From Microbacterium sp. SSM24 (GTDB lineage: Bacteria; Actinomycetota; Actinomycetes; Actinomycetales; Microbacteriaceae): a stretch of DNA of 64,000 nucleotides. The stretch is taken from the NCBI RefSeq assembly GCF_025989145.1, contig NZ_JAPDNQ010000001.1, positions 1,860,001-1,924,000 of the forward strand, written 5' to 3'. The translations under genes and the position numbers were made by a program. Position 1 is the stretch's first letter. Each line of letters begins with the position of its first letter. Shown here in pieces: positions 13,997 to 51,312 of this stretch. The notes below the pieces were generated by a model. That model saw only the letters and a list, made by a program, of their open reading frames with translations. It did no database searches and had not been told where the DNA came from.

Positions 13997-15976
13997 ATGC
14001 ACACCATGCGACCGGGCAGAGCCGGACTGAAGAGGATCGCCGTCGCGGTGGCCGCCGCCGTCGCACTGATCGCCGCGGGCGCTGTCGCGATCCCGGCCAC
14101 GGCGGCCGACGAGCCGATCAACGTCGCGCTCGCCTCCGGCGACAACGCGCCCACGGTCGAGGTGAGCTACGTGCCGAGCTGGAACTCGGCTGCCGCCCTC
14201 AACAACGGCGCGGCCGCGCCGACCAACACGCTCTCCGCGATGTGGGGCACGTGGGGCGCGCCGGGCAACCCGACGCAGGACATCGCCACGTACACCTGGG
14301 AGCGTCCCGTCACGGTGAGCTCGTCGAAGCTCTTCCTGTGGCAGAACCACCTCACCCCCAGCGGCGACTCGGGCGTGATGATCCCCGCCGCCTGGAAGGT
14401 CGAGTACCGCAGCCCTGCGGGCGAGTGGCTTCCCGTCACCGGCGCCGGCCTGAGCTACCCGCTCCCGGTGCTCGACACCGCGGCGCCGGTGACCTCGCAG
14501 CCGGTCGTGCAGGCGAACTGGGACGCCGTCACCACGACCGCGGTCCGACTCGTGCTCGACCGCGTCGTGTTCCAGAGCCAGCGCAAGGCGACGAGCGTCA
14601 TCGAGTGGGAGGTGTGGGGCGTGAATGCGCCGGTCGTCGAGCCCGAGCCCGAGGACCCGAACGCGTTCATCGACTCCGAGGCGGTCGCGGTGCGCACCGT
14701 CACCGGAACGGCGCCGGAGCTCCCCGAGCGCGTGTGGGTCATCGGCGAGAACGGTCCCCTGCGATACGTCGATGTCGAATGGGCGCCGGTCGCGGCATCC
14801 GCCTACGCCTCGGCCGGGACGTTCGACGTGGTCGGCGATCCCGACGGTTACGACGGGCAGTCGGTGACGGCGACCGTGTTCGTGGCCGCGACGCTGTCGG
14901 ACGAGATCGACGCCGTCGACTACACGGCGACGATCACGACGCCCGGCGTCGCACCCGTGCTGCCCGGCTCCGTCCGCGCGACGTACGCCGACGGCACCGC
15001 GAGCAGCGACGTCGAGGTGGACTGGGCGCCGATCGAAGCCGCGCAGTACGCCGAGGCCGACGCGATCTTCGACGTCGAAGGCGCCGTCGACGGCTACGAG
15101 CCGGGCGCGGTCGCAACCGTGTTCGTCGTCGAGCCGCTGAGCCAGGCCGAGCCGATCGTCGCGATCGAGTTCGACTCCGCCGCGCAGGGATCGGGCTGGT
15201 ACACGACCGCTCCGACCGTCACGATCACGGCGGAGGAGACGGCGAGCCCCGTCGCGCGCATCGAGTACAGCCTCGACGGCGAGACATGGCAGGCGTACGA
15301 CGAGCCGTTCTCGGTCGACGCGCAGGGCGAGGTGACCGTGAGCGCACGCGCGACGAGCGAGGACGACGCGGTGGGCGAGGCATCCGAAACCGTGAAGATC
15401 GACACGATCGCGCCGACGACCGGCATCGACTGGATCGTCGTCGACGGCACGTCGGCGACCGTCACCCTCACGCCGTCGGACGACGAGCCGGGCTCGGGAG
15501 TCACGCGCACGGTGTGGTCGGACGGTCCGGACCCGTCCCCGACGGGCGAGACGAACAACATGTACGCGACGTACGAGGAGCCCTTCTCGGTGCAGCTCAC
15601 CGAGGAGCCTCGGTACGTGCACGTGCAGGCTCAGGATGCCGCGGGCAACGTGGAGCAGCATGCCACCGTCGAGCTGCCCTCCCTCACCGGGGACAGTCTC
15701 GACCTGGTGCCCGCGGTCGTGCAGCGCTGCGTCTCGGGCAAGGTGCTGATCGCGGTGACGGTGCGCAACGCGGATGACGTCGCGGCCGACATCACGGTGG
15801 AGTCCGCGTTCGGGTCGAAGACCTTCGCCGCGGTCAAGGCCGGCGGCACGGTGTCGACGACGTTCTCGACCCGCACCCTCGGTGTGTCCGGTGGCGAGGT
15901 CGCGGTCAGCGGGACCGGCACCGACGACACCGCGTACCACGGCAGTGCGCAGTACGGCGCCTTCACCTGCGGCTGA
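13997..15976 (+). CDS. Secreted multidomain carbohydrate-binding protein, no catalytic domain seen
   Basis: A 659-residue Sec-secreted protein; the start at 13997 follows GGAGAG by 7 nt, better placed than ATGs at 13955 or 13970. After the signal (ends near ATAA) comes a discoidin-like beta-sandwich (roughly residues 40-200, starting NVALASGDNAP). Two Ig-like repeats with the shared words VEWAPV/VDWAPI and FDVVGDPDGY/FDVEGAVDGY follow, then a chitobiase/Ig-like region with YSLDGETW and AQDAAGNVEQHA. The last 83 residues (Arg577, Cys578 to Cys658-Gly659) are the locus-wide C-terminal module. No glycosidase motif is visible, so it is probably a binding or scaffolding partner co-transcribed with the Tat-exported GH127. 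Confidence 0.8.
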   Translation: MHTMRPGRAGLKRIAVAVAAAVALIAAGAVAIPATAADEPINVALASGDNAPTVEVSYVPSWNSAAALNNGAAAPTNTLSAMWGTWGAPGNPTQDIATYTWERPVTVSSSKLFLWQNHLTPSGDSGVMIPAAWKVEYRSPAGEWLPVTGAGLSYPLPVLDTAAPVTSQPVVQANWDAVTTTAVRLVLDRVVFQSQRKATSVIEWEVWGVNAPVVEPEPEDPNAFIDSEAVAVRTVTGTAPELPERVWVIGENGPLRYVDVEWAPVAASAYASAGTFDVVGDPDGYDGQSVTATVFVAATLSDEIDAVDYTATITTPGVAPVLPGSVRATYADGTASSDVEVDWAPIEAAQYAEADAIFDVEGAVDGYEPGAVATVFVVEPLSQAEPIVAIEFDSAAQGSGWYTTAPTVTITAEETASPVARIEYSLDGETWQAYDEPFSVDAQGEVTVSARATSEDDAVGEASETVKIDTIAPTTGIDWIVVDGTSATVTLTPSDDEPGSGVTRTVWSDGPDPSPTGETNNMYATYEEPFSVQLTEEPRYVHVQAQDAAGNVEQHATVELPSLTGDSLDLVPAVVQRCVSGKVLIAVTVRNADDVAADITVESAFGSKTFAAVKAGGTVSTTFSTRTLGVSGGEVAVSGTGTDDTAYHGSAQYGAFTCG

Positions 15977-15987
15977 TCCCCCCTCGC

Positions 15988-16021
15988 GAACGGCCCGCGG
16001 TCTCCCCACCGCGGGCCGTTC
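15988..16021 (+). terminator. Hairpin terminator after the secreted binding protein
   Basis: A perfect 14-bp stem (15988-16001 with 16008-16021) and a 6-nt loop begin 12 nt after the stop codon, closing the GH127/binding-protein operon. Confidence 0.8.
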
Positions 16022-16137: not shown

Positions 16138-16157
16138 GCGGGGACGGATGCTGCGGG

Positions 16158-17200: not shown

Positions 17201-20200
17201 TCAACCGCAGGATGCCGCGGGGTACGCGAACTCCTGGTCCACAGTCACCGGCTGTCCGTTCACGGTCGCGGTCGCCTTCAGCGCCACGTTCGACGCCGGG
17301 ACGGATGCCTGACGCGTGGTGAACGACGCGGACGCGCTCTTGCCCGCAGCGACCGATCCGAACGCCTTCGTGCCGTAGGCGGTCGTCGCGGTGAGAGTCA
17401 CGGGGAAGCCCTCCCCGTTGGTGACGGTCACCAGCTGCACGACCTTGCCGGACACGCAGCGGGTGGTGACCGCGGCCGACACCTCGAGCTCGGGCCCGAC
17501 GACCGTGACGGTCAGCGACACCGTGCGGTTGGCGGGTGCCACCTCCTCCTCGCGGGTCTGGTTCAGCACCGCGGAGCCGTCGGCGGCGAAGTGCACCGTC
17601 TTGACGCGCGCATGCCGGCTGGGGTCGTTCAGGCCGCCGTCGGCGCCCGGGATCCACTCCGAGATGGGCGGCCGCGCGTGGTAGACGATCACCGGGTTCC
17701 CGTCGGCGTCGAGCGTGAACGAGTTGTGGCCCGGTCCGTTCTGCTGGCCGCCGAAGTCGTCGGAGGTGAGCAGCGGGTAGCCGGTCTTGGTCCACGTCGA
17801 CTGCTTCAGGAGATCGCCCCCGAGCGGTGCGCGCAGCATGCCGACCGAGTAGGTCTCGTTCACCTCGGAGGCCGAGAAGAACACGAACACCTCGTCCTCG
17901 CTCTTGATGACCGCCGGACCCTCGTTGATGACCTGGCTCGCGGTCCGCTCCCACGCGTAGTTCGGCGTGGAGAGCAGGATCGACGGGGTGATCAGCTGGC
18001 TCGGGTTCGTCGGGTCGATCTCGGCCATGCGCAGGTCGGAGCTGCCGGGCTTCTCGGCCCACACCATGTAGTGCTTGCCGTTCGCCTCGAAATACGTCAT
18101 GTCGAGCGAGAAGCTCGTGAACGCCGAGGTGTCGCCGGGGGCCGCCTTGATGTAGCCGAGCTCCTCCCAGTTCGAGGCGACCATCGGGTCGCTGTTCCCG
18201 GGGGCGCGCATGATCGCGGGCCGGATGTTCCACACGTCGGTGCTTCGGCTCGACGTGAACAGGATGTACCAGTCCCCGTTGATCTTGTGCAGCTCGGGCG
18301 CCCAGAAGTACCGGTAGGCGCCCGTGGCGACCTTCGAGCCGTTCGACGTGTTCGGGGACGCGGCGTTGCGCGACCACAGCAGCACCTGCTCCTGCGCGGT
18401 CGTGAGCCCGTTGATCGAGCCCGCACGCCGCAGCACGATGCGGTCGTACCCGACGCCGGGGTTGGCCTGCGTGGTCGGGTAGGAGCCGGTGAGGTAGTAC
18501 TCCGTCTCGCCGGTGCGCTCGTCGTCGCGGAACACCCACGGGTCGGCCCGCTCGGGCACGAGGATGCCCTTGCTGTCGCCGTACACCGGCTGGTTGACCG
18601 TGCCCGTGACGGTGTACTCGCCCGGGGTGTCGAGGTCGACGGTCGACGTGTCCCAGTTCACCCCGAGCTGCTTGGTCGAGCCGTCGGAGTAGCCCAGCTG
18701 CGCCTTCTCGGGCAGATCGAGCTCGCCGCCGACGGCGACCTCGACGTCGTCACCGGCGTCGACGGTCGTGTTGACGATCCGGCCCAGCGACTTCTGCAGG
18801 AGGGCGAGCTCCGCCGTGGTGACGGGCAGAGCGGATGCCTCGATCGCGCCGGTCGGGAGACCCGACACCGTCGGCGCCGCGGCCGCGGTGATCGACACCG
18901 GAGCGCTGAACGTCACGAAGTCGGTCGTCGTGACCTCGTACGCCGCGCCCGCGGAGGTGCGCAGCACGACACGATAGGCGCGGATGCCGTTGTCGTAGGC
19001 GACGTCGGCGCGGGAGACGGTGATGCCCTGGGTGTTGGTCAGAGCCCACTTCTGACCGCTGAAGGTCACGAGATCCTTCGACGTGTAGACGAAGATGCGG
19101 CCGTTCGCGGCGTTGTCGGTCGCCACGACGCCGTAGCCCCCGTCGGGGGTGCGGAACAGCGTCGGGTTCGCGAACTGCGACGTGCCGGTGCCGAACGTCG
19201 GGTAGAGGATGCCCTTGTTGTTGTTCAGCGCGATCAGCGGGTCGCCGTCCGCGGCCACGGCGAGGTGCAGCACCTCGGTCTTCGCGGTGCCGCCGGTGCG
19301 GACGTAGGCCACGACGCGAGCGGTGTCCTGGGCCTTGACCGTCACCGTGTAGGAGCGCTCGGCCGTGTTCTCGCCGCGCGTGAAGGTGGCGGTGAGCTCG
19401 ACCTCGGTGTCAGCCGCCGGCCGGGCGACCTCGCCCGATTCGGACACGACGCCGGGATTCGACGATTCCCACGTCACGTCGACGCCGTCGACCTCGTCGC
19501 GCAGGACGATGTCGGCCGTCACGACCTCGATGCCGAGGTCGAAGGCGTCCGCGGTGCGGTCGAGGTCGCGCTGCGGGTCGATCGCGGGAACCGTGATCTC
19601 GTAGGTGCGAGTGAGCGTCTCGCCGCCGAGGGCGAACGTGCCGCTGAGCGTGACGACCGCGTCCTGCTGACCGGCCGCGGGCCGTGTGACGGAGCCGTCC
19701 GCGCCGATCACGCCGTCGGCCGAGGAGGCCCACGTGATGCGGGACCGGCTCGCGCCCGCCGTCGGGAGGGTGACGTCCGAGATGGCTTCGGAGGGGAGCG
19801 AGACGGCATCGGCGTCAGCCGCGAGTGCGGCCTGCGTCTGTGCGGGCGTGGTGCGGTCGCTGAGGTGGTAGATCTCGGCGACCTGGCCGGCGCTGTAGGC
19901 GGCGGTCGACACGATCACATCATCGACGGACCCCTTGAAGAACGGGTCCGCATAGGTCGAGCGGCCGATGTAGCCGACGAGTCCGGTGCCGAACTGCGAG
20001 ACCGTGCGCGAGGTGGCGACGGTCCCGACGAGGGCGCCGTTGTAGTAGCCGGTGATCGATGTGGGGGTGATCACCGTCGTGTACATGGCCCACGCGGTGC
20101 CGGTCGTCGGACCGGCGACGCCCTGTGCCGCGTTGGTGGGGGAGATGCCATACTCGGTGCCCCACGGCGCCGAGGGCACGTTGCCGTTGGTGACGACCGT

Positions 20201-23800: not shown

Positions 23801-24376
23801 TGGACGAAGCTGAACTATCCGATCCAGAAGTCGGGCATCTTCAACGGGGAGTGGCAGCTGGGAACCGGCCACGGCATGTGGTCGCACGACGAGGACGACA
23901 ACCTCCTCTACGTCTTCCACGCCCGCACCGACAACAACGGCAAGACGGGTCGCGACACGTTCGTCCGTCGGGTGCACTGGGCCTCCGACGGCCTTCCGAT
24001 CTTCGACATGGAGTCGGAGGAGGAGGTCGCCCCCGGCAACCGCGCGGTATCGACGACCGTCACGGTGATCGGCGATGCCGCGCCGGCGCTGGACGTCTCG
24101 GGGACGGTCACCGCGCGCTGCGTCGCCGGCAAGGTCGTGCAGGTCCTCACCGTGACGAACGCGGAGGACTTCCCCGTCGCGGTCTCGGCGACCGGCGCAT
24201 ACGGCTCGAAGGCCTTCGGCGCCGTCGCTCCCGGCAAGAGCTCCTCGACCTCGTTCACGACACGGCAGCCGTCGGTCGCGATCGGCGCGGTCGCGCTCAC
24301 CGCGACCGCCACCGTCGAGGGCGCACCGGTGACGGCCACGATCGACATCGCCTACCCCGCCGTGGCCTGCGGCTGA
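20864..24376 (+). CDS. Secreted LamG-Ig-GH43 arabinosidase with C-terminal Cys module
   Basis: A 1170-residue paralogue of the divergent neighbour. ATG 20864 lies behind GGAGAG; in-frame ATGs at 20747 and 20852 are less well placed. Signal peptide to about residue 31 (GAHA), LamG domain (about 37-260), Ig-like repeat with RVTWTSSNADVVAV, and a linker repeat. An incomplete propeller that still carries an RDP motif (SLRDPHVFYLADGSFG) is followed by a Big_4-like domain. In the catalytic GH43 propeller, Asp725 (RADPSIF), Asp882 (SLDMTYF) and Glu935 (AEGPNV) form the probable triad. The terminal module spans Arg1085-Cys1086 to Cys1169-Gly1170. The next gene starts 35 nt downstream in the same operon. 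Confidence 0.88.
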   Translation: MRASSRTRKTTTALAVIGAMILGLGVTGAHAAVPEDGLVAEYVFDAASGSTVANSAPGSAFGAATVRNVQAADWTGSSLTLRGGAKTSTGNWVELPDDLLAGKQSATITAEVKASSAMLSGFHFLWNIGNESSATEYFFASLNCGSGRAPLVGLKAGGVERLVQSGSCGLTANTWVNVTTVVDGAAGTASLFIDGVRTAHGAIGATPGAVVDQSLNTIGRAPWPDPLFQGSISAFRVYDRALSSAEVAQVSADDAAAHSAELRAQAQAIIDGLALVDRETSTDIDLPTASGRVTWTSSNADVVAVDGTVSPPLAGEAAVPVELTATASVRGATASRTITVTVLPSSETAAQRAERLAGQFVIPSVVESGALIPAAPAGTSVEVVSVDGEVEVGEAIVSTVETETDAAIEVRVTDTATSATATRAFSVRVLPSASTSELLAYSRTATSVAEANNADVAFSMHLALEGGDGWNPLNENYGIWFAKTSAPPPANGTTESIIRSLRDPHVFYLADGSFGVVATRVARGGASDGTQSSRMLFARSADLRSYQEAGLVDLGVTSGVNGPAVVFDSASDRYVVSWTSDAGAAMYTTFGDLTDAATRGPVLRGSVAATAGTAAAGVPNYATGNALPIAGDVVDALRVRFGRVANTGIEPLDEVTVETGEELAAGDLPERAALSYDDGSSATRAIEWDAASLAAVDTSTPGTYEVTGSVKQPEFATPFADERADPSIFRFDWNGAEKFLLIATEDLNLNPIDPANGAHMPIRVADRIDDLSDHALADGRNVEVDLLRAGDTDADGAVMTGCFWAPEFHVIADRLSILFMPCYNGSNGRPDMWTGRASIIQLKQDAQGNDLDPAVPANWTKAQKVVRADGSILNPVQSISLDMTYFTDSGQSYYSWQMLGSIFIAKMDPADPTRLTSAPVRILAPEYAWDNTIAEGPNVHVHDGVLNLIYSGSTVGDSYTTGLTTATAGAGVDLTNPAAWTKLNYPIQKSGIFNGEWQLGTGHGMWSHDEDDNLLYVFHARTDNNGKTGRDTFVRRVHWASDGLPIFDMESEEEVAPGNRAVSTTVTVIGDAAPALDVSGTVTARCVAGKVVQVLTVTNAEDFPVAVSATGAYGSKAFGAVAPGKSSSTSFTTRQPSVAIGAVALTATATVEGAPVTATIDIAYPAVACG

Positions 24377-27400: not shown

Positions 27401-27825
27401 ACGGCACCCGCGACTCCGGCACGAGGATGGTGTACTTCCGCCAGGACGGCAGCCCGATCCTCGACATGACGAACGACGAGTGGCTCGCCGCGGCGAACCG
27501 CACGGTCACGGCCACGGTGACGGTGACGGCATCCGGTCTCGACGTCGACGCGGCGGTCACCTCGCGCTGCGTGAGCGGCAAGGTCGTGCAGGTTCTCACC
27601 GTGACCAACGGCGAGGACGTGCCCGTCACGATCGCCGTCTCGGGCACTTACGGGACGAAGACGTTCACCGCGCTCGCCGCGGGCAGGAGCGCGTCGGCCA
27701 CGTTCACCACGCGGCTCGCGGCCGTCCCGGCGGGCACGATCACGCTCGCCGCATCCGCGACGATCGACGGCTCGCCCGTGACCGACACGGCGGAGGTGAG
27801 CGCCGCGCCCGCCTCGTGCGGGTGA
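24412..27825 (+). CDS. Secreted LamG-Ig-GH43 arabinosidase with C-terminal Cys module
   Basis: The third paralogue, 1137 residues. GTG 24412 is chosen because AGAAAGGA lies 7 nt upstream and the signal peptide then starts with an Arg-rich n-region (residues 8-23) before the hydrophobic core ending near AAHAA. The domain order repeats that of the previous gene: LamG, Ig-like, shortened propeller segment (here without the RDP motif), Big_4-like, GH43, terminal module. Likely triad: Asp711 (RADPHV), Asp844 (LDMTHF) and Glu910 (AEGPFV). Terminal module: Arg1052-Cys1053 to Cys1136-Gly1137. It was probably formed by duplication and then diverged strongly, which suggests different linkage specificities within the same polysaccharide. 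Confidence 0.88.
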   Translation: MDRTDVTPARARDSRRTRRTRRTRILSGVLGTALVVGAIGATGPVAAHAAEPASLLASYDFSETGGTVLHDVSGAGRDGAVVGGAAWRGGSMQFTGANHVQLPNNLLAGQTAATVVIETSPTALSGAKFLWNIGGSGDAATGQFFIQPVAPRLAISTSNWSGEQSVTSATKLVEGRWQSVAATIAKNAGGTTSTLTLYIDGVRVAQKTDSTVALSDLTTHTLNYIGKSAYNGDSLYQGGVSAFRVYGEALSATDIATASTTDAAAAAAEVVGGIDLDAVNVQDLTQVESDLVLPTAGGVTWTAQPAGIVAPNGQVSRPAADTVVTLTATATVRGQTANRTLDVTVLKAPTAAEQATRAAETLTVPSVLERGYVLPASALGLPVAWTHVSGAGSVVDGVVASGPASGLAAATLEAVVGTGTDAATTRLDVRIAETGASRVAAYTTSKNTRGGDDPEVTRSGHLALSANGTSFTALNSGAGVVFPTVSGMTETNNGTKRYLARPYAFRLSGDEGFGLIARRTSDTGTADAAGAIVFTSPDLVDWTEVGFLPLPGQGTTGAVSAEWDSRVDAYRIAWTSTSGSTLTGTTADFAAVGAVKLGQQPGGRTGTIDVPYAETASIVPVTASEARVAEQLLGRVRNTGVQTPEEVTITAGGEVELPETVTADYSDGGTHDFRVDWDTTDVDTSTPGDYTVTGTLQRTDTIFPLLPNRADPHVLRYTLANGQKTWLYIATDDNGQDEFFIRQADTIAGLGTAADNRILGYGLSGTSTNAQLWAPELHVVNGDLYILFAANANSANSWTGVQSYTMRLKSGGNPLVRADWDAPQRVVDAAGQPLTTYGTGITLDMTHFTDGGTDYVVWSERVVAPATGPAVLKIAKVTPSTTGPWRLSSQRSTIVYPDRGWSTNTSAVAEGPFVIQRDGRIMITFSGSNIDWTYAVGLATASSGDDLLDPGAWDVRGDAIWSYEGAFSNNWGPGHNSYTYDDDGNLINVFHAKATQNGTRDSGTRMVYFRQDGSPILDMTNDEWLAAANRTVTATVTVTASGLDVDAAVTSRCVSGKVVQVLTVTNGEDVPVTIAVSGTYGTKTFTALAAGRSASATFTTRLAAVPAGTITLAASATIDGSPVTDTAEVSAAPASCG

Positions 27826-28290: not shown

Positions 28291-30984
28291 CTAGCCGCAG
28301 CTGGCGGCCGTGAAAGCGCCGGATGCCGCGGCGCTGGTGCCGCCCGAGGTCACCGTCACCGCGACGGAGCCCGTCGTGATCGAAGACTGCCGGGTGGTGA
28401 ACGCTGCCGAGGCGCTCTTGCCGGCGGCGACGGCCGCGACGGACTTCGACCCGTACGGCGTCGAGATGCCCAGCGCCACGGGCGCCGCCCCGTCGTTCGT
28501 GACCCGGACGGTGAGCGTGACCTTGCCTGAGACGCAGCGCGTGTCGGCGACGACCGTGACCGGCAGCACCGGTGCGGCGACCACGACCTCGGCCGTGACC
28601 GTCACGGCCGTCGAGCTGTACAGCTGCCGGCCCGGCGCGTTCCACGCCGTCGAGCCGCCTGCGCCGACCCACTGGTTCAGGTTCGCGCCGATCGTGCGAA
28701 CCGTGCCGGTCACCTCGTAAGAGCCGGGCTCGGACGTGTCGATGCCCGCGAGATCCCACGTCACCGGCTGCGACGCCGTTCCGCGCCCGTACGCCAGCAC
28801 GACGTCGGCCTCGGCCGGCAGCGCGGCCCGCACGGCGGACTCGGACGCGGCGGCCTCGACCTCGACGGAGCCGAGGTCGGCGGTGACGGCGGTCGCGGCA
28901 TCCGCTGCTCGGATCTCGTCGTACTGCGCCTTCGTGAGTCCCACGATGCCGCCGTGCTTGGTGCTCGGAGCCATGAAGAAGCTGCTGCTCACGAGCTGCG
29001 TGAAGCCGGCATCCAGGTCGTTCGTCTGCATCGGCCGGTAGCCGGTCGAGGGGATGACGTCGACGTAGAGGTACCAGGACTCCTCGCCGTGACGCTGGAA
29101 CACCGCCGGACCCTCGACACCGCCCGCGTTGCCCCCTGCCCACACGGCGCCGATGCGCGTCTGCAGCTGCGTCCAGGTCGCGGCGGGCTTCCACCACTGG
29201 GCGGCCGTGGTCGATTCGAGGTAGATGCCCTTGCCCGCGGAGTTGTCCTTCGTGATGCGGTACGTCGTGCCCTCGTTCTGGATGATCGTCGTGTCGATCG
29301 TGTTGCCGCCCGCGTCGATGAACGTGCCGCCGTACTCGTAGGTCTCCTGCGTGAAGTCGGGCGTCGCGCCCCACAGGATGCGGGAGTAGCTCGAGCCGGT
29401 GTGCTCGGCGTTCGCGTACACGTTCGATGACCAGTACAGGACGAACGCGCCCTCGCCGGCCCCGTAGTAGTCGGGCACCCAGGTCGCCTCGGGCGCCCAC
29501 GCCATGCCGAACTCGCCGACCTTCGCACCGTCCGACAGGGCGACGTCGAACTGGCGCAGGTCGCTCCAGCTCACGAGGTCCTTCGACTCCCAGACGTTCA
29601 GCGTGGTGTTGCCCTTCGAGCTCCAGTAGCACCACTCGGTGCAGCCGCTGACGCCGCGGTCACCGCCGAACACCCGCAGGTCGGTGGCGATGATGTAGTA
29701 CGTGCCGGTCTCGGGGTTGTACGTGAGGTACGGGTCGCGGATGCCGGTGGTGCCGAGGTCGGATGCGAGGATCGGCTTTCCCGCGTTGAGCGGGTCCCAC
29801 TGCTCGGGGTTGTCGCCGCGGGACACGTCGAGGTAGATCTTCTCGGCATAGCCGGCGGAGTCCTCGATGAAGTGCACCATCGCGTACCCGAATGCGTCGT
29901 CCGCGCCCGCCTGCGGCTTCACCGTCACCGGCACCGCACGGGTGGCCGTCGCGCCGCGCACGGTGGCCGTCGCGGTCAGGGTGGTCTCGACCGGCGCCTG
30001 GCCGGTGGCCGGCTGGTCCGCGGTCGCCGTGACGCCGTCCGCGCCGATCTCGATCGCCGGGTCGCTCGAGGACCACGACACGCGTCCGCCGTAGGTCGGC
30101 AGGGTGGTCGTGGCCTCGTCGAAGGTCACCGCGGCGACGCTGTCGGCGACGGTCTGCGCGGCCTGCTGGAACGACGAGGCATGGATCGCGGCATCCGCCG
30201 TCGACACGTCTGCGACCTCGGCCGCCGTGAGCGCACGGTCGTACACGCGGAACGTCGACACCTCGCCCTTGTACATCGGGTCGGGATACGGCGCCCGGCC
30301 GATCGCATTGAGGGTCTGACCGATGGATGCCGGGGTCAGGGCCGTGTTCGTACGGGCGACCTGGACGCCGTCGACGTAGAACGTGATGTGGCCGGCGGCG
30401 CCGTCGATCACCGAGGTCAGGCTGTACCAGCGGTTCGCGTCGAGCGCGGAGCCGGAGCGGGCGTTGACTTCGCCGCCACCGCCGGTCGCCGTGATCGAGG
30501 TACGCGGGTTGTCGCGCACCGACGCGAAGTAGTACTGCGTCGTGGAGTCGCTGCCGATGTTCCAGAGGAAGTGCCAGCTGTTCTTCATCGTCGCGTCGAG
30601 CTTGGTCTCGATCGTGACCGTCGCCGACGTCCTGCCGGCGAGGATGTCGTCGGGAAGGCGCACCCAGTTCGCGCTCGCGCTGGTCTTGGCGCCGCCGGCG
30701 AAGACGAGGGACGAGCCGGTCCACTGACTGTCGGTCCCGTTGACGACGGTCGCCGCCGCACCGCCGCTGACGCGGTTCGGGATGCTGGAACCCGCAGTCT
30801 GATCGAACAGGTACTCGGCGAGGAGGCCGGTGGTCGGTGCGGCCGGCGCTGCGCCGACCGCGGCGGCCGCGCCCACCGGCACGAGCGCCGTGGCGACGAA
30901 GGCGGCGCCGACGAGTGAGGCGAGGAGCCGGCGTGGCCCTCGAGAGCGGTCGGTGCGGGCGGCAGATCGAGGAAGGGGAATCAC
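28291..30984 (-). CDS. Secreted LamG-Ig-GH43 glycosidase with C-terminal Cys module
   Basis: An 897-residue secreted enzyme of a different GH43 branch. The GTG at 30984 follows AAGGAG by 5-6 nt. After the signal (ends around GAAAAVGA) there is a LamG domain (about 53-270), an Ig-like repeat with RVSWSSSDPAIEI, then the GH43 propeller. Likely triad: Asp417 (GIRDPYL), Asp564 (TIDTTII) and Glu624 (VEGPAVF); spacing of 147 and 60 supports this. WAPEATW follows the second blade. A Big_4-like domain follows the catalytic part rather than preceding it, and the terminal module runs from Arg816-Cys817 to Cys896-Gly897. The RDPY/WAPEA type resembles GH43 enzymes acting on arabinogalactan or arabinan side chains; subfamily unassigned. 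It is divergent from the giant GH127-like gene. Confidence 0.86.
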   Translation of the reverse strand: MIPLPRSAARTDRSRGPRRLLASLVGAAFVATALVPVGAAAAVGAAPAAPTTGLLAEYLFDQTAGSSIPNRVSGGAAATVVNGTDSQWTGSSLVFAGGAKTSASANWVRLPDDILAGRTSATVTIETKLDATMKNSWHFLWNIGSDSTTQYYFASVRDNPRTSITATGGGGEVNARSGSALDANRWYSLTSVIDGAAGHITFYVDGVQVARTNTALTPASIGQTLNAIGRAPYPDPMYKGEVSTFRVYDRALTAAEVADVSTADAAIHASSFQQAAQTVADSVAAVTFDEATTTLPTYGGRVSWSSSDPAIEIGADGVTATADQPATGQAPVETTLTATATVRGATATRAVPVTVKPQAGADDAFGYAMVHFIEDSAGYAEKIYLDVSRGDNPEQWDPLNAGKPILASDLGTTGIRDPYLTYNPETGTYYIIATDLRVFGGDRGVSGCTEWCYWSSKGNTTLNVWESKDLVSWSDLRQFDVALSDGAKVGEFGMAWAPEATWVPDYYGAGEGAFVLYWSSNVYANAEHTGSSYSRILWGATPDFTQETYEYGGTFIDAGGNTIDTTIIQNEGTTYRITKDNSAGKGIYLESTTAAQWWKPAATWTQLQTRIGAVWAGGNAGGVEGPAVFQRHGEESWYLYVDVIPSTGYRPMQTNDLDAGFTQLVSSSFFMAPSTKHGGIVGLTKAQYDEIRAADAATAVTADLGSVEVEAAASESAVRAALPAEADVVLAYGRGTASQPVTWDLAGIDTSEPGSYEVTGTVRTIGANLNQWVGAGGSTAWNAPGRQLYSSTAVTVTAEVVVAAPVLPVTVVADTRCVSGKVTLTVRVTNDGAAPVALGISTPYGSKSVAAVAAGKSASAAFTTRQSSITTGSVAVTVTSGGTSAAASGAFTAASCG

Positions 30985-34200: not shown

Positions 34201-35386
34201 CGCCCGCTACGCGATCTACATGGACCTCATCGAGCCCGACTCGCCCCAGGCGCAGGCGCTGATCCTCAAAGACAAGCAGCAGCAGCGGATCGACGAGACC
34301 ACGATCGACGCGCTGACGTCCTTCGACAACAACAACAGCGAGGCCGACAAGAACTACCGGTTCAACAAGTCCGGCGTGGGCGTCTGGCTCGGCGAGGGCT
34401 ACCGCGACGGGCAGATCGCGACCGACGCGTACTTCCAGTACGACATGGTCGTCGACCCCTCGCTGCCGGCCAACTACCTCGGCGTGCGCTACTTCGGCGG
34501 CGACAACGGGCGCACCTTCGACGTCTACCTCAACGACGTGCTGCTCAAGCACGAGCGCGTCACCAACGCCGCGGGGGCGAACACGTTCTACGTGCAGTAC
34601 GACGAGATCCCGGCATCCGTCCTCTCGGGCATCGCCGCGAGGGACAGCTACAAGCGCGACCAGAACGGGCAGTACGTGCTCGATGCGCAGGGCCAGAAGA
34701 TCCCGGTGGTGACGGTGCGCTTCCAGGGCAACGGCACGAGCTACGTCGGCGGCGTCTTCGGTGTCTACACGGCGTCGAAGACGACGTACGCAACGGCCGC
34801 CGACCTCAGCGCGCTGTCGTTCGAGGACGGTGAGCTCGCTCCGACGCTGACCGGCGGGGTCTACTCGTACACGGTGACCGTGCCCGCCGATGCGACCACC
34901 GCCACTTTCGACGCCGATCCGGCGGCGCCCAGCGGGCTCGTGCGCCTCGGCGGCATCCTGATCGACGACACGCTTCCGCGCACGCTGCCGCTCGCCGCCG
35001 ACGGGCCGACGGTGCTGACGCTGACGGCGACGGCGCAGGACCACGTCACGACCTCGACCTATCGGATCGAGATCGTGCGGGCCCCCGTGCAGCCGCCGCT
35101 CGATGTCACCGCCGTGGCCGCCGTGCGATGCGCGGCGGGCAAGCCGATGCTCACCGTGCAGGTGCGCAACGGTGCCGGCGTGCCGGTGGCGCTCGCCATC
35201 GAGACGGTCGCGGGGACGAAGCAGATCGCGACGCTCGCGGCGGGGAAGACCGCGTCTGCGGCCTTCACCTCGCGCGCAGCGCAGCTGCCGGCGGGTCAGG
35301 CGACGGTGACGGCGTCGGCTGTCGTCGACGGCCGAACCGTGTCGGTGTCCGTTCCCGTGGCCTACCCGGCGACGACGTGCGGATGA
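31226..35386 (+). CDS. Giant secreted GH127/GH146-like protein with altered zinc site
   Basis: 1386 residues. Order: signal to about residue 36 (VAASA), LamG (about 40-265), Ig-like (about 270-350), DUF1680 catalytic barrel (about 360-870, with GHFFGHYISALSQAY, YNLHKVLAGLLDAH, NTEYGGMNEALYE and KHANTTIPK). A beta-sandwich (about 1010-1195), a cadherin-like sandwich (about 1200-1290) and the terminal module (Arg1301-Cys1302 to Cys1385-Gly1386) follow. Glu692 and Cys694 of the metal site are kept, but the usual Cys-Cys pair is Cys761-Asp762-His763. The nucleophile position is therefore present while one thiolate ligand is replaced. The frame is continuous around this point, so it is not a frameshift. 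ATG 31226 has a moderate ribosome site (GAGGGAG). Confidence 0.85.
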   Translation: MAKMPTDRFRRVIAFATATTLAAGLLAVATPVAASAAPLSIESAKVLDLAFEGNLADAGPNAATVTMQKGAAAYATGIDGQAFNLNGSNAIRLGTDAYLQPADLTVSFWYKPNAVMSGEQVFAWSKLAYNSPGWYLTSESNTSALALSVGPATGQPFKVAVDTARAGFFPAGQWTHVVVTYDKATKDVRFYRNGVRQISTVKYAATGTATGAIVGESTTVKTLGYNGPQYNGAHANGLIDDYTLYNGVATVSDVVSLTQSNDPTFDPAAVAQGALDALSVPTSVAADVGVPTEAANGTTIAWSSSNTGIISLDGGAATVTRPAASPATVTLTASASYGGSAPVTRTFEVQVPQEGASTSIYLEDTDLGEVLLEDPYLVNGNEKMIDYLISLEPERFLTAFYTQAGLPTTAQPYGGWERTSGTRFQGHFFGHYISALSQAYATTTEPATKAALLAKLTTAVDGLKNAQTAYAAIDPTNAGYVSPFSTSVLPSGGGGLLVPFYNLHKVLAGLLDAHEYAPAAVSAKALSVASGFGTWVRDWAGRQANPATLLNTEYGGMNEALYELYSITENPAHKRAAEYFDEVALFQQLAAGQDVLDGKHANTTIPKLIGALKRYTVFTDNPHLYAQLSATEKSNLGMYRAAAENFWQIVVDDHTYANGGNSQSEHFHGADELHEHATNGTTSGYGENSTSEICNEYNMLKLTKALFQVGPDVKYADFYEHTYINAILAQQNPETGMMTYFQPMQAGYAKVFGRPYDEFWCDHGTATESFTKLGDSIYFRKGESVFVNMFRSTVYTDETHNMRLTQTADVPADETVTFSVEAIDGGALPEGTTLRLRVPGWAAATPTLSVNGQTQDVAALTEDGYVVVEVAAGDELTYELPAEVRVIDDTENPNWVAFAYGPVLLATELNRTNVDATYVAGVLVRMSTADKSVSNDVVVGDADAFKAGIADNLVRIEDGDNANGIETMRFKMQNADAATEALTFEPWYSLYGARYAIYMDLIEPDSPQAQALILKDKQQQRIDETTIDALTSFDNNNSEADKNYRFNKSGVGVWLGEGYRDGQIATDAYFQYDMVVDPSLPANYLGVRYFGGDNGRTFDVYLNDVLLKHERVTNAAGANTFYVQYDEIPASVLSGIAARDSYKRDQNGQYVLDAQGQKIPVVTVRFQGNGTSYVGGVFGVYTASKTTYATAADLSALSFEDGELAPTLTGGVYSYTVTVPADATTATFDADPAAPSGLVRLGGILIDDTLPRTLPLAADGPTVLTLTATAQDHVTTSTYRIEIVRAPVQPPLDVTAVAAVRCAAGKPMLTVQVRNGAGVPVALAIETVAGTKQIATLAAGKTASAAFTSRAAQLPAGQATVTASAVVDGRTVSVSVPVAYPATTCG

Positions 35387-35392
35387 CGATTT

Positions 35393-35437
35393 CGAAAACC
35401 ATTTCGGTACTTGTTTCCGCTAACTGTTGCCGGTAAC
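35393..35437 (+). promoter_or_regulatory. Operator cluster upstream of the surface-protein operon
   Basis: In order: cgaaa-acca-tttcg (35393-35406), gtttccgctaac (35413-35424) and gttgccggtaac (35426-35437). The arrangement copies that at 11368-11419, with the same spacing between the last two elements and an identical 18-mer at 35411-35428. The remaining 290 bp of this 342-bp gap hold no convincing gene; a frame at 35490-35732 has poor codon usage in its second half. Confidence 0.6.
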
Positions 35438-35728
35438 ATTCACGTGAGCCAGTCGATCCATCGTCGGATCCGAGAGCAAAGGTGCGAACATGCTCAGTCC
35501 CTTCCCGAGCCACACGGCGCTGACCGCGATGCCCGCGGCCGCGCGCGCGGCCGCGACGGGCTCCGGGCGTCGAGCGACCACGGCCGCGCGGTGCGCGTCG
35601 GCCATGACCCCAGTGAGACGGGAGCGATCGGCTGCGGCTGAGGCTTCCAGCGAGTCCCGACGGCCGGATGGTCCGGTCGCTCGCAACTTCGGCTCGGCAG
35701 GGGTGCCGACCGGGAATTGGAGAGATAG

Positions 35729-36349
35729 ATGAACAAGCGAGGACTGATCGTCCGCACCGCCGTCGGAGCAGTCGGCGGGATGCTGCTGATCGGCGTAGCC
35801 GGCGCGGCCATCGCCGACGAGGTCGGCAGCGACGAGGTCGACGTCAACGTCACGATCGAGGCGCTCGAGCCTGTCGGCGCGCTCACCCTGAGCGTGGCGG
35901 CCGACTCGACGACGCTCACCGAGGTCGACTCGGGCGATGCCGCCGTGCGCCAGTTCGACGGCGTCCTGCCGACGGTCACGGTGACCGACGACCGCGCCGA
36001 GGTCCCGGCCGACACCTTCTGGTACGTCAACGGGCAGTCGTCCGCCTTCTCGGCAGCCGGCGTGCCGGACATCGGCCCCGAGTACCTGGGCTGGACGCCG
36101 GCGCTCACGAGCGACGACAGCAACGGCGAGGTCTCCGCGGGCGAGCAGGTCGACACGATCCTCGACGACGGCCCCGACGCGGTGGGTCTGGCCGGTGAGG
36201 AGCTTCTCGCGATCGCGCCGAACTTCGGCGAGCTGCCGAGCGGCTCGTGGACGGCGAACGCGAACCTGTTCCTGAAGACGCCTGTCGACGTCGCACCGGG
36301 CAGCTACTCGGCGACGATCACGCTCACGCTGTGGGAAGACGGAATCTGA
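35729..36349 (+). CDS. Secreted WxL-like surface protein
   Basis: A 206-residue secreted protein with signal peptide ending near GAAIA (residue 29) and an all-beta mature part. It begins with VDVNVTIEALEPVGALTLSV, contains VPADTFWYVNGQS in the middle and ends YSATITLTLWEDGI. The final strand pattern resembles the C-terminus of WxL-type cell-surface proteins, although the canonical WxL motifs are not both evident. ATG 35729 follows GGAGAG. It is the first gene of a three-gene surface operon with a DUF916 protein, and its promoter carries the arabinose-locus operators. A non-covalent cell-wall or partner-binding role is inferred. Confidence 0.65.
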   Translation: MNKRGLIVRTAVGAVGGMLLIGVAGAAIADEVGSDEVDVNVTIEALEPVGALTLSVAADSTTLTEVDSGDAAVRQFDGVLPTVTVTDDRAEVPADTFWYVNGQSSAFSAAGVPDIGPEYLGWTPALTSDDSNGEVSAGEQVDTILDDGPDAVGLAGEELLAIAPNFGELPSGSWTANANLFLKTPVDVAPGSYSATITLTLWEDGI

Positions 36350-36380
36350 TCCGTCCTGCAGCGGACTCGTGTTGAATCGG

Positions 36381-36407
36381 GTCGGGGCCGTGCTGCGCGG
36401 CCCCGAC
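36381..36407 (+). terminator. Intra-operon hairpin after the WxL-like gene
   Basis: A 10-bp perfect stem (36381-36390 with 36398-36407) and 7-nt loop begin 32 nt after the stop codon. It may attenuate transcription so that the small secreted protein is made in excess over the membrane-bound DUF916 protein. Confidence 0.6.
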
Positions 36408-36430
36408 CCTGACGTCTGGATCCACCCATC

Positions 36431-37498
36431 GTGACCCACCTTCCTCAGCGACCCGCGATGATTGCGCGGGCGCTGCTCGCCGTCGTGATGTCGCTCGTGC
36501 TCCTCGCCACGGCGAGCCCGGCGGCAGCCGCCGGCGACACCGACGACGCGCCCGAGATCCGCTGGTCGGTCGTTCCCGCCGACGCCTCGGGACCGGACGG
36601 ACGCACCGCCGTCGAGAACGATCTCGACCCGGGCGAGAGCGTGTCCGATCGCTTCGCGGTCCGCAACGTCAGCGATGTCGAGGTCACGTTCCGCCTGACC
36701 GCCGCCGACGGGTTCTACACCCGCAACGGCCGGTTCGACATCCTCCCCGCCGACCAGGAGTCCGTGGACTCCGGCACATGGATCTCCCTCCCCGACGAGG
36801 TGACCATCCCCGCGGGTGAGACCGCGATCGTGCCGTTCGAGATCGCCGTTCCCGACAACGCCGAACCCGGCGATCACGCGGCCGGGATCACGGCATCCGT
36901 GCTCTCGGTGCAGACGGGCGACGACGGCGCGAACGTCGGCGTGGAGAGCCGCGTCGGATTCCGCGTCACCACGCGCGTCACCGGCGAGCTGTCGCCCGAG
37001 CCCGCCATCACCAGCGTCGTCGCGGACTACGCACTGTCGTGGAATCCGCTGCGTCCTGGTCAGGTCACCGTCGCCTTCGAGGTCGAGAACGCCGGCAACA
37101 CCATCCTCCTCGTCGAGGGCGCTTTCAACGCGGGTGGACAGAGCACCGCCTTCCCCGCCGACGGCGAGAAGCCTCAGGAGCTCCTTCCCGGCGACAGCCG
37201 CAGCTTCACCGTCGTCGTGGACGACGTCTGGCCGCTGTTCGCCGTGCCGGTCGAGGTCGTCGTCGCCCCGACGATGCTCACGATGACGGGGGAGACCGCC
37301 GAGGTGACCCCGGTCACGTCGACCACGACGCTCTGGGCGATGCCGTGGCCGCAGCTGATCATCCTTCTCGGCCTCGGGCTGCTGATCTGGGCGCTGATCC
37401 AGGGACGCGTGCGATCGCGGCGCCGGCTCGATTCGATGCTCGCCGACGCACGCGAAGCAGGACGCCGCGAGGCATCCGAGACGGAAGACACCCGGTGA
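36431..37498 (+). CDS. DUF916 membrane-anchored surface protein (WxL-interacting type)
   Basis: A 355-residue protein with signal peptide (to about residue 34, SPAAAA), two Ig-like extracellular domains and one C-terminal membrane helix (about 308-328, PWPQLIILLGLGLLIWALI), followed by an Arg-rich cytoplasmic tail. DUF916-like features include ESVSDRFAVRNVSDVEVTFR and VPFEIAVPDNAEPGDHAAGI. In Firmicutes, DUF916 proteins are encoded next to WxL proteins in csc-type clusters linked to plant polysaccharide use. The GTG at 36431 is taken as start; an ATG at 36458 is the alternative. Its stop overlaps the next start (GTGA), indicating translational coupling. Confidence 0.78.
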   Translation: MTHLPQRPAMIARALLAVVMSLVLLATASPAAAAGDTDDAPEIRWSVVPADASGPDGRTAVENDLDPGESVSDRFAVRNVSDVEVTFRLTAADGFYTRNGRFDILPADQESVDSGTWISLPDEVTIPAGETAIVPFEIAVPDNAEPGDHAAGITASVLSVQTGDDGANVGVESRVGFRVTTRVTGELSPEPAITSVVADYALSWNPLRPGQVTVAFEVENAGNTILLVEGAFNAGGQSTAFPADGEKPQELLPGDSRSFTVVVDDVWPLFAVPVEVVVAPTMLTMTGETAEVTPVTSTTTLWAMPWPQLIILLGLGLLIWALIQGRVRSRRRLDSMLADAREAGRREASETEDTR

Positions 37499-38106
37499 CG
37501 AGCGGCGCTCGCGCCGCCGGTGCGCTCGCCGGTCTTGCTCTCGCGCTCGCGGTCGTGGCTGTCCCCGCCTCGCTCGCGGCAGCGCAGGAGTCCGAGCCGG
37601 ACCCCGGTCGCGTCACCGTCACTGTCGAGATCTCGCCGCTTGCGTGCCCCTCCCCGCCGGGGAACCCCTGGGGGCCGGGGAAGCCGGGCAAGCCTCCCCA
37701 CGCGGGGAACCCGAACCACCCCTGTCATCCGGGCAACCCCGGCGGTCCGGGCAACCCCGGTCATCCGGGTGGACCGGGCGCTCCCGGGTACCACGCCAAC
37801 CCCGGCCGCCCCGGGAACGCGGGGGAGGGCGCCGCAGGTGCCCCGAGGCCGACGCCGTCGCCGACGCCGTCGGCCGCACCCGCCGCGCCGGGAGGACCCG
37901 GGAAGGGCGACGGAAACGGCGACGGCGGCGACGGATCCGAAGCGACGCCGCGCGCGGAGACGACTCCCGCGGGCTGGCTCGTCGCGGGAGGGGTCACGGC
38001 AGCGGTCGGCATCGGCGGTCTCACGTGGCTGGTTCTCGGTCGGCGCGCTGCGGCTGCCGCGGCGGCGGCAGCCCCCTACGATGTGGTCAGCAAGAAAGCA
38101 CGGTGA
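37495..38106 (+). CDS. Secreted Gly/Pro-rich protein with C-terminal membrane anchor
   Basis: 203 residues: signal peptide (to about residue 30), a short VTVTVEISPL strand like that of the first gene of the operon, then a collagen-like low-complexity region rich in Gly-Asn-Pro and Gly-Pro (about 45-110). A Pro/Thr linker, an acidic Gly-rich stretch, one membrane helix (about 162-180, containing VAGGVTAAVGIGGLTWLVL) and a short Ala/Lys tail follow. No LPXTG motif is seen. It looks like a flexible stalk that spans the cell envelope. The GTG at 37495 overlaps the stop of the DUF916 gene, so the two are probably made in fixed ratio. Confidence 0.7.
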   Translation: MTSGARAAGALAGLALALAVVAVPASLAAAQESEPDPGRVTVTVEISPLACPSPPGNPWGPGKPGKPPHAGNPNHPCHPGNPGGPGNPGHPGGPGAPGYHANPGRPGNAGEGAAGAPRPTPSPTPSAAPAAPGGPGKGDGNGDGGDGSEATPRAETTPAGWLVAGGVTAAVGIGGLTWLVLGRRAAAAAAAAAPYDVVSKKAR

Positions 38107-48333: not shown

Positions 48334-51312
48334 ATGAGAACGCAACCGTACCCGTCCCCCCGACGACCGCGCCGACGCGCCACGCGCCGGGCTGTCGCGG
48401 CATCCGTCTCCGCAGCCCTCGTTCTCTCGGTCATGGGGCTCACAGCGCCCCTCGCGGCGAACGCCGCGGTCGTGCCCGCACCGAGCGCGCACTACGACAT
48501 GTCGCATGCCGGTTCGACGCTGCTCGACGTGTCGGGCAACGGGCGCAACGCGACACTCACGGGACTGACGGACGCCTCGTTCGCGACGGCCGGGACGGAC
48601 GACGTCCTGCGCTTCCGCGCCGACGGCTACGCCGCGCTCCCGCAGGGCCTGGTGACCGGTGCCGACAACAGCTTCACGGTCGAGTACACCGTGTCGACGC
48701 AGACGTCGGCGAACCACTTCGGGTGGGTCATCGGCGATGGCGTCGGTCCGTGGAACACCACCCAGCTCGGCAACCACATCTTCCTCAGCCCGCGCTCCTC
48801 GCAGGGCGGCTACGTCAACCAGGTGCTCGCGGCGATCCGCGTGAAGTCCGGCACGGACAACGGCGAGTCCCGTCTGCCCGCCGGCGGCGGCCTGAACCCG
48901 GGCTTCACGACCCTCACGATGGTCGGGTCGGGCAACACGCTCACGGTCTACCGCGACGGCGCCGTGATCTCCACGCTGACGCACACACGCGCGCTCAGCT
49001 CGATCATCCCGACCGGCGGTGTGCTCGGATATCTCGGCCGCTCGCTGTACCAGGGCGATCCGCTGCTGCGGGCGGATGTCTCGGACGTGAAGTTCTGGGA
49101 TGTCGCGCTCACCGCCGAGGAGGTCTCGACGAGCATGCCGACGGCCGCCCAGAAGACGGCCGCCACCTCCGCGCTGCTGCGCGGCGACGTGCTCGCGAAC
49201 ATGCTCGGCGCGAACGCGTCGCTCGACAGCGTCACGACCAACCTCACGCTCCCGGCGACCGTGAACGGCGTCACACTCACATGGGCGTCGTCGGCACCGT
49301 CGGTGATCTCGACCACGGGCGTCGTCTCCCGCGCGATCACCGAGAACGCCGCCGTCACCCTCACCGCCACCACGTCGCTCGGCTCGACGCTCACGTTCGA
49401 CGCGACGGTGCTCGCCCCGAGCGTCGGCGCCGACCTCGACGCGATCGTGCTCGCCGAGCGCACCACCGAGAACCTGCCCCTCGCCACGACGGGCTCCGTC
49501 AACGGCGCGGCCATCACGTGGACCTCGTCCGACCCTGGGCTCGTGACGGCGACGGATGCCGCGTACACGGCGCCCGCCGTCGGTGCGGCCGATCCGTTCC
49601 GCGGCGGCGGGCTCGTCACGCGTCCCGCCTACGGCGCGGGCGACAGCGAGGTCACGCTCACGGCCCACGCGACGCTCAACGGCCAGACGGCGCAGCGCAC
49701 GTTCGAGGTGACCGTGGCCGAGCTGGGGCGCTGGGCGCCCGACGCCGGCTACGCCGCCGCGTACTTCAAATCGGACGGCGACGAGAAGATCTACCAGGCG
49801 GCGACGTCGGGCAACGACTTCTTCACCTTCTCGCCGGTCAACGGCGGCAACGCGGTGATCACGTCGACCGCCGACACGAAGGGTCTGCGCGACCCCTACA
49901 TCCTGCGCTCGAAGGACGGCGACAAGTACTACATGGTCGCCACCGACCTGTGCATCAGCTGCGGTACCGGCTGGGGCCCTGCGCAGTCGAACGGCAGCCT
50001 GAAGATCGAGGTCTGGGAGTCGACCGACCTCGTGCAGTGGGAGCGGACGAACGGCGAGAACACCGGCATCACGATCAACCAGCCGGCTGCCGGCATGACC
50101 TGGGCGCCCGAGGCGTACTGGGACGACGACCTGCAGTCGTACGTGGTGTTCTTCGCGTCGCGTCTCTACTCGGATGCGTCGCACACGAACTCCGACAAGC
50201 TGTACGCCCGCATGTTCGCAGTGCTGACGCGCGACTTCCGCACGTTCACCTCCCCGCCCGCCACGTGGCAGGACACCGGGTACGCGCGTATCGACTCCAC
50301 GGTGACGAAGATCGGCGACTACTACTACCGCTTCACGAAGAACGAGGAGAGCGGCGCCGCCGGCACCCTCGAGGCCGGCAAGGACATCTTCCTCGAGCGA
50401 TCGAAGGTGCTCACCGCCCCGACGACCTCGTCGAGCTGGTCGGCCGACCCCGAGACGACGTGGCAGCTCACGGATACGCGGATGACGAGCCTCGAGACCG
50501 GCCAGTCCGGTGAGGGACCCGAGATCATCAAGCTGAACGAGGGGGACCCGAACAACACGGGCGACGGCTATGTGTTCCTCGTCGACAACTACAGCGCGGG
50601 CGGCTACCGTGCCTTCGTCACGAGCGGCGCGGCGATCGCGTCGAGCCAGCAGTCGAACCGCCTCTCGCAGCGTGCCGAGTGGAACGTGCGTCCCGTCGGC
50701 GGGCTGCCCGCGAGTCCGCGCCACGGCGCGTTCGTGAGCGTCACGAAGACGGTGCTCGACGCCATGCGCGGCTGGACCGAGGTCGCGGCCGTCGCGTCGA
50801 CGACCACGCTCACCGCGGAGGGCCGCGACGTCACCGCAGAGGTGGTCGCGGCCGACGGCGGAGACGTCGTGGGCTCCGTCACCTTCTCGGGAGGCTCGTG
50901 GAGCAAGACCGTCGACCTGACGGACGGCGCGGCGAGCGCCGCAGTGCCCGCGGGCGTCTCGTCCGTCACGGCGCACTACGACGGCTACACGGACGGTCTC
51001 GTGAGCGCGTCCACGTCGTCCTCGGTCGCCCTGGGTCTCGAACTCGCCGCCACCGGAGCGACCCGCTGCGTGTCGGGCAAGATCACCGAGATCGTGAGCG
51101 TCACGAACACCGACGACGTCACCGCGACGGTCACCATCGCGGGCCGCTACGGCAGCAAGACGGTGTCGATCGCCCCCGGCAAGACGACGTCGGCCAGCTT
51201 CACGACGCGCGCGATCGCGATCACCGCCGATGAGGTGGTGCTCACCGCGACGGCGTCGGACGGTCGCACGCACTCGTCGACGGTCGTCGTGGCCGCGGCA
51301 TCCTGCCAGTAG
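48334..51312 (+). CDS. Secreted LamG-Ig-GH43 glycosidase with C-terminal Cys module
   Basis: A 992-residue secreted enzyme. A long Arg-rich n-region precedes the signal core (to about residue 46, ANAA). LamG domain (about 48-265), two Ig-like repeats (VTLTWASSAPSVIST; AITWTSSDPGLV), then the GH43 propeller with likely triad Asp520 (GLRDPYI), Asp654 (RIDSTV) and Glu727 (GEGPEI), and WAPEAYW. A further Ig-like domain and the terminal module (Arg911-Cys912 to Cys991) follow. This copy ends Cys-Gln instead of Cys-Gly. It belongs to the same GH43 branch as the gene at 28291-30984. Being last in the importer/araDBA operon, it ties hydrolysis to uptake. Confidence 0.86.
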   Translation: MRTQPYPSPRRPRRRATRRAVAASVSAALVLSVMGLTAPLAANAAVVPAPSAHYDMSHAGSTLLDVSGNGRNATLTGLTDASFATAGTDDVLRFRADGYAALPQGLVTGADNSFTVEYTVSTQTSANHFGWVIGDGVGPWNTTQLGNHIFLSPRSSQGGYVNQVLAAIRVKSGTDNGESRLPAGGGLNPGFTTLTMVGSGNTLTVYRDGAVISTLTHTRALSSIIPTGGVLGYLGRSLYQGDPLLRADVSDVKFWDVALTAEEVSTSMPTAAQKTAATSALLRGDVLANMLGANASLDSVTTNLTLPATVNGVTLTWASSAPSVISTTGVVSRAITENAAVTLTATTSLGSTLTFDATVLAPSVGADLDAIVLAERTTENLPLATTGSVNGAAITWTSSDPGLVTATDAAYTAPAVGAADPFRGGGLVTRPAYGAGDSEVTLTAHATLNGQTAQRTFEVTVAELGRWAPDAGYAAAYFKSDGDEKIYQAATSGNDFFTFSPVNGGNAVITSTADTKGLRDPYILRSKDGDKYYMVATDLCISCGTGWGPAQSNGSLKIEVWESTDLVQWERTNGENTGITINQPAAGMTWAPEAYWDDDLQSYVVFFASRLYSDASHTNSDKLYARMFAVLTRDFRTFTSPPATWQDTGYARIDSTVTKIGDYYYRFTKNEESGAAGTLEAGKDIFLERSKVLTAPTTSSSWSADPETTWQLTDTRMTSLETGQSGEGPEIIKLNEGDPNNTGDGYVFLVDNYSAGGYRAFVTSGAAIASSQQSNRLSQRAEWNVRPVGGLPASPRHGAFVSVTKTVLDAMRGWTEVAAVASTTTLTAEGRDVTAEVVAADGGDVVGSVTFSGGSWSKTVDLTDGAASAAVPAGVSSVTAHYDGYTDGLVSASTSSSVALGLELAATGATRCVSGKITEIVSVTNTDDVTATVTIAGRYGSKTVSIAPGKTTSASFTTRAIAITADEVVLTATASDGRTHSSTVVVAAASCQ

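Follow-up and report, generated by a model that had tools for sequence, protein, structure and literature searches.

The window analysed here, a stretch of 64,000 nucleotides from Microbacterium sp. SSM24, contains genes for GH43 and GH127 enzymes, a sugar ABC transporter, L-arabinose isomerase, an FGGY kinase, a class II aldolase family protein and a LacI regulator, and because of this gene content the locus looks like one that serves arabinan or arabinose use. The first-pass annotation had described seven secreted proteins in the window that share a C-terminal module. All seven exist with the lengths claimed, and each terminates in the module:

15725..15973, forward strand: module of the 13997-15976 protein (Big_4 Ig-like, no catalytic match)
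17204..17461, reverse strand: module of the 20641-17201 protein (LamG, aBig_2, Big_4, GH43)
24116..24373, forward strand: module of the 20864-24376 protein (LamG, aBig_2, Big_4, GH43)
27565..27822, forward strand: module of the 24412-27825 protein (aBig_2, Big_4, GH43), the copy used for structure prediction
28294..28539, reverse strand: module of the 30984-28291 protein (LamG, aBig_2, Big_4; a relative of the 48334 protein)
35126..35383, forward strand: module of the 31226-35386 GH127 protein, neighbour of the WxL-like genes
51064..51309, forward strand: module of the 48334-51312 protein (LamG, aBig_2, weak GH43), ending in Cys-Gln

All 21 pairs of window modules align far above 200 shuffles each, with z values from 13.6 to 37.9, and the seven-row alignment has invariant R-C, G-K, N, G-x-K, G, F, R and a last Cys, among other positions. 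The module had been described as 82 to 86 residues starting at Arg-Cys; a shared C-terminal domain it is, but in the structure model its true start lies about 10 residues before the RC, which makes a domain of about 95 residues. The whole genome holds nine copies rather than the seven of the window, the two extra ones being parts of long proteins encoded around genome position 160 kb. Their last letters are FGC and CGAR. What is fixed is therefore a Cys no more than about 2 residues from the end, and not the penultimate Cys followed by Gly of the earlier description; the final Gly varies. In the 13997, 20641 and 24412 proteins, the two cysteines of the module are the only cysteines of the whole protein.

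The observation that the module is not tied to one catalytic type stands, but the label "non-catalytic" is doubtful for two of the carriers. Identity between the 30984 protein and residues 429-991 of the 48334 protein, a stretch that takes in the module, is 36%, and the 48334 protein has matches to GH43 and GH32, both below threshold. The 13997 protein showed just Ig-like and weak accessory domains in the family scan. Two GH127 proteins of other compartments had been said to lack the module, and this was only half borne out: with the GH127 protein at 11662-13968 as query, phmmer found one other GH127 protein in the window, which is the module-bearing one.

Structure prediction gave the module of the 24412 protein the fold of an Ig-like sandwich of seven strands (pLDDT 97), with strand A formed by residues 5-14 and the first Cys at residue 13. 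It had been put forward as an unnamed domain, and family scans returned no reliable match and no strong match to a known domain; its carriers of mixed type likewise mark it as a domain of its own. None of the seven window modules contains a W-x-L motif or has a Pfam WxL match. A pooled set of 345 distinct modules was assembled from matches that cover the profile from position 12 or earlier to position 85 or later, with partial matches and identical copies dropped, and 343 of them form the protein end. Among these 343 terminal modules, 333 have both cysteines, 9 have none and 1 has the first Cys only. A disulfide predicts joint loss of the two, as seen in the 9 modules, so the suggested pairing is supported by cysteines that are kept or lost together, and they behave as expected of a disulfide.

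The terminal position was also read directly against stop codons. In a first set of loci, a stop was readable for 112 of 113 distinct matches, and 107 of the 112 end no more than 2 residues from it; the five exceptions have tails of 4, 7, 96, 98 and 105 residues, the 96-residue case being a partial match of 30 residues. At the 80 best DUF916 loci described below, 170 of 173 module matches end within 3 residues of the stop, and the three non-terminal ones (tails of 17, 35 and 94 residues) are all weaker matches, two of them partial. Almost all copies of the module are thus at extreme C-termini, but two are internal. In L126, the internal module is followed by what appear by eye to be chitin-binding-like repeats, and in L121 by another Ig-like stretch.

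Against the module of the window GH127 protein, the 20 comparisons listed, at a module identity of about 45% or more, have dN/dS values between 0.16 and 0.67, and in close GH127 orthologs the module is under looser constraint than the preceding 300 residues. This looser constraint and the disulfide pattern at the very end of the protein are compatible with a passive structural cap that shields the C-terminus from proteases. We regard such a cap as improbable, since it leaves unexplained the gene linkage, the patchy multi-copy distribution and the exchange with sortase signals that are described below.

Of 366 Microbacterium genomes, 145 have the module, with copy numbers that reach at least 13 per genome in the genus-wide count, which scored no more than 13, and 19 in one genome searched without this ceiling. 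Sampling across the order gave 38 of 248 genomes and 15 of 85 genera, a phylum-wide sample of 396 genomes gave 6, all of one family, and Glycomyces was added by a contig scan of named genomes. At DUF916 loci, the genera with the module include Microbacterium, Agromyces, Glycomyces, Actinotalea, Cellulomonas, Tessaracoccus, Brachybacterium, Rathayibacter, Arthrobacter and Agreia, among others. The domains of 36 of the 37 non-redundant complete carriers from DUF916 loci were scanned, one very long frame being left out. GH43 is the commonest (18/36), and the 25 families listed, of 50 in all, also include GH127, GH35, GH62, GH30, GH3, ThuA, GSDH and phosphodiesterase; GH20 is a further carrier type.

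Most of the carriers scanned are glycoside hydrolases, as would suit a carbohydrate-binding module that targets the substrate, and one of the seven modules, when scanned in isolation, matched CBM_35 weakly (E 6.9e-4). No CBM match covers the module region in the seven full-length window proteins, the carriers are as unlike as GH43, GSDH, ThuA, phosphodiesterase and GH20 proteins, and a module that is almost always terminal and trades places with anchors does not fit substrate targeting well. A carbohydrate-binding module is hence hardly probable.

Three genes follow the module-bearing GH127 gene directly and on the same strand:

35729..36349, forward strand: small WxL-like protein P0024 ("swx"), 206 aa, with a signal-peptide-like N-terminus by eye and a putative CscB-like role
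36431..37498, forward strand: DUF916/WxLIP protein P0022, 355 aa, with a C-terminal hydrophobic helix by eye and a putative CscA-like role
37495..38106, forward strand: small Gly/Pro-rich protein with a C-terminal hydrophobic stretch, its start overlapping the stop of the DUF916 gene, in a CscD-like position

P0022 matches DUF916 (PF06030) with 32.2 bits against a cut-off of 27.3, and no DUF3324 second domain was found in it by Pfam at E<=10. It has a signal peptide and a C-terminal transmembrane helix by eye, and its 355 aa fit the 320-380 aa given for WxLIP in PMC10599100. P0024 has no PF13731 match; its own genome gave 0 matches while the Lactococcus lactis control was positive, and PF13731 is not among the families matched by 38 P0024 relatives at E<=1. 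The aligned relatives have D-x-R followed by W-x-[VL] in 38/38 and a C-terminal Y...L strand in 31/38, and the Trp of the second W-x-L motif is missing in 38/38. At least 3 of 120 listed relatives bear the UniRef name "WxL domain-containing". By these sequence features P0024 is WxL-like, not WxL.

A small protein with a C-terminal helix after the DUF916 gene was found at 26 of 78 loci by a loose rule (23 with an LPxTG-like word) and at 12 of 74 by a stricter one (7 LPxTG-like); the window's own small Gly/Pro-rich protein has no LPxTG-like word. The fourth cassette protein of the Microbacterium loci L177-L179 and of the window (ending at 38106) has a near-identical PYDV-SK-type tail, unlike the LPxTG-like versions elsewhere.

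In exosortase and type IX systems, C-terminal sorting signals are processed by a dedicated enzyme. The extreme C-terminal place of the module, its many carriers per genome and the single partner locus would be in keeping with a sorting signal of this kind, removed or processed by its own enzyme. Several points argue against processing and make it very improbable: the three cassette proteins have no match to protease families, none of the 345 modules has an LPxTG word or a transmembrane stretch in its last 60 residues, two copies are internal, and the module is predicted with confidence to be a folded domain and has its Cys pair at the terminus.

To examine the linkage of these genes, the DUF916 profile served as the sole criterion for picking loci, the best 80 of 225 relatives in a collection of named genomes being taken. 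The module was present at 71 of these 80 loci and a WxL-like gene at 71 of 80, counts in which several loci share a genome (some 2-3 each) and many overlap the genomes of the genus search. Where at least 4 kb was available on both sides, 62 of 67 of these loci have the module. Of the nine loci without it, 4 are clipped by contig ends and 5 are intact, and three of the intact ones (L213, L221, L240) also have no WxL-like gene. Of the 71 loci that have a WxL-like gene, 45 have a module gene immediately upstream of it on the same strand, 16 have one in divergent orientation, 7 have one just downstream of the DUF916 gene, and 3 have none. The trio of module, WxL-like and DUF916 genes is present in most loci read that have the close type of DUF916. 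In genomes with only a second, distant type of DUF916 and no module found, a large protein itself ends in the WxL-like domain at 4 of 5 loci (L172-L176), the fifth having no WxL-like match; L172-L175 are thus apparently a large-WxL arrangement within Actinomycetota.

Across the genus, with DUF916 counted at E<=1e-4, 118 genomes have both module and DUF916, 27 the module only, 42 DUF916 only and 179 neither; at E<=1e-55, the numbers are 94, 51, 1 and 220. These are raw genome tallies in which phylogeny is not corrected for, and because the genomes are related and loci and genomes are shared, the tests depend on one another and their Fisher p values look stronger than they are. The module is thus present in 94 of 95 Microbacterium genomes with the close DUF916 (E<=1e-55), and the single exception, G287, is 88% complete. 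Among genomes with at least 7 module copies, 38 of 39 have the close DUF916 type and 39 of 39 have some DUF916; the window genome has nine modules and one DUF916 match. The distant DUF916 type alone occurs in 24 of the 145 module-bearing Microbacterium genomes. Outside the genus, DUF916 was found in 26 of 31 module genomes and the WxL-like protein in the same 26, against 2 of 17 and 1 of 17, respectively, of the module-free genomes listed; 17 of the 26 have DUF916 at E<=1e-85, and nine have the distant type only (E about 1e-51 to 1e-74). Six genomes of one family (G818, G857, G871, G899, G925 and G969) have several DUF916 matches each, up to 14 in G871, and their WxL-like matches often overrun one stop, probably at the very end.

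Neither DUF916 nor a WxL-like protein was detected by profile in 27 of the 145 module-bearing Microbacterium genomes, which have 1 to 4 modules each, and likewise in 5 of the 31 module genomes outside the genus. The 27 genomes count against a strict dependence of the module on the complex. From these 27 genomes and five others that lack DUF916, 33 of 56 module matches were read: 21 have both cysteines, 11 none and 1 the first only. Both cysteines are thus lost in 11 of 33 modules there versus 8 of 336 in other or unknown genomes, a contrast that is modest at the level of clusters (10/27 versus 5/43, p 0.017). L278 (G293), which lies outside the 345-module set and comes from a genome without the WxL-like complex, has a module with neither Cys, after which come a Gly-rich linker and an LATTG sortase-type tail. 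The greater loss of cysteines in DUF916-lacking genomes and the sortase tail on L278 suggest that the module decays where its partner complex is missing.

The C-terminal ends of orthologous GH127 proteins were compared. Among the best 120 of 1870 GH127 relatives, the cadherin-like domain is followed by the module in 96, by a sortase-type signal or C-terminal helix in 12 (11 by rule, plus P0143, which has a sortase word and falls under the helix cut-off), by PF04122 cell-wall-binding repeats in 3 and by another or truncated end in 9. The orthologs with PF04122 repeats are P0053, P0054 (Herbiconiux liukaitaii) and P0064. No module-bearing relative among the best 120 also has a sortase tail. Within the genus, 47 GH127 copies were found in 44 genomes, 38 with the module, 5 with a sortase-type end and 4 with no C-terminal extension, the last matching just 303 of 410 query residues and possibly being paralogs. 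In genomes with the close DUF916, 37 of 41 copies bear the module, versus 1 of 6 elsewhere. Four of the 5 sortase-type copies are in genomes with the close DUF916, so module and sortase anchors can coexist.

The module can be exchanged for wall anchors, which do not depend on such a partner, and 27 Microbacterium genomes keep it without the complex. Both would fit a module whose ligand is the wall, either peptidoglycan or a wall glycopolymer, with the WxL-like and DUF916 proteins as a parallel surface system of the same operon and not its receptor. Wall binding would not predict the co-occurrence in 94/95 and 26/31 genomes or the recurrent adjacency of the genes, and we consider it unlikely.

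The anchoring or partner-binding role that had been guessed at for the module is favoured by its gene neighbourhood, co-occurrence and domain swaps; the WxL-like and DUF916 genes downstream of 35386 had been overlooked. From these lines of comparative evidence, we propose, with a probability of about 0.65, that the module is a C-terminal surface-docking domain for a WxL-like/WxLIP complex. Each enzyme would leave the cell by means of a signal peptide (recognised by eye), its last ~95 residues would fold as an Ig-like sandwich, and a disulfide between the Cys near the module start and the Cys at the protein end would staple the N- and C-terminal ends of the sandwich. The resulting cap would attach non-covalently to a surface complex encoded by the neighbour genes, in which the small WxL-like protein would be held by the membrane-anchored DUF916/WxLIP protein. 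We infer the binding and anchoring, a partner that may be either the WxL-like protein or the WxLIP, and the face through which the module would bind. A single complex could serve many enzymes encoded elsewhere in the genome, so that a set of arabinan- and hemicellulose-degrading enzymes would be displayed on the cell.

With surface docking, an unnamed domain of 145/366 Microbacterium genomes and of 15/85 genera sampled across the order would have a likely function and a partner open to test. Docking would explain how a large set of secreted enzymes is retained on the cell surface, and would extend WxL-type surface complexes to actinobacterial polysaccharide degraders. More tentatively, at somewhat less than even odds, there may be a general plug-and-socket display in Actinomycetota, in which one or a few WxL-like/WxLIP sockets per genome receive up to 20 or more secreted enzymes with a disulfide-capped plug. 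If so, any enzyme would gain a place on the cell surface by acquiring the plug, the enzymes would form a non-covalent cellulosome-like array without scaffoldin repeats, and the plug carriers would be the actinobacterial csc counterpart of large WxL proteins. The plug could also be usable as a display tag.

The cscA to cscD genes were named by Siezen in 2006, with a role in the use of plant polysaccharides proposed (PMC1534035). In Firmicutes, WxLIP, whose first domain is DUF916, clusters with two WxL proteins, one small and one large (PMC10599100), and more than 91% of WxL sequences were reported from Firmicutes (PMC9772566). The same cluster layout is present at window 31226-37498 and at other loci, where DUF916, small WxL-type and large proteins adjoin and the module replaces the WxL2 domain. 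Both kinds of cluster have a DUF916 protein with a C-terminal helix, a small WxL-type protein of about 200 aa, large secreted proteins with a common C-terminal domain, at some loci a candidate small LPxTG-like protein, and a proposed role with plant polysaccharides. Unlike in csc clusters, the large proteins here end in a Cys-pair module of about 95 residues instead of a WxL2 domain, are mostly glycoside hydrolases and are in several cases encoded away from the cluster, and the hosts are Actinomycetota. In WxL domains, Asp-x-Arg-Gly precedes the first W-x-L motif (PMC1534035). The P0024 family resembles the WxL domain (PF13731) in its D-x-R then W-x-V/L (38/38) and its Y...L strand (31/38), and differs in the absent Pfam match and second W-x-L Trp (38/38), while the module has no W-x-L at all. 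P0022 is like WxLIP (DUF916-DUF3324; PMC10599100) in its DUF916 match, size, signal peptide and helix by eye and adjoining WxL-type gene, and unlike it in having no DUF3324 match. Sortase (LPxTG) and CW_binding_2 anchors fill the C-terminal place of the module on orthologous GH127 enzymes. Their chemistry is other than that of the module, being covalent attachment or repeats.
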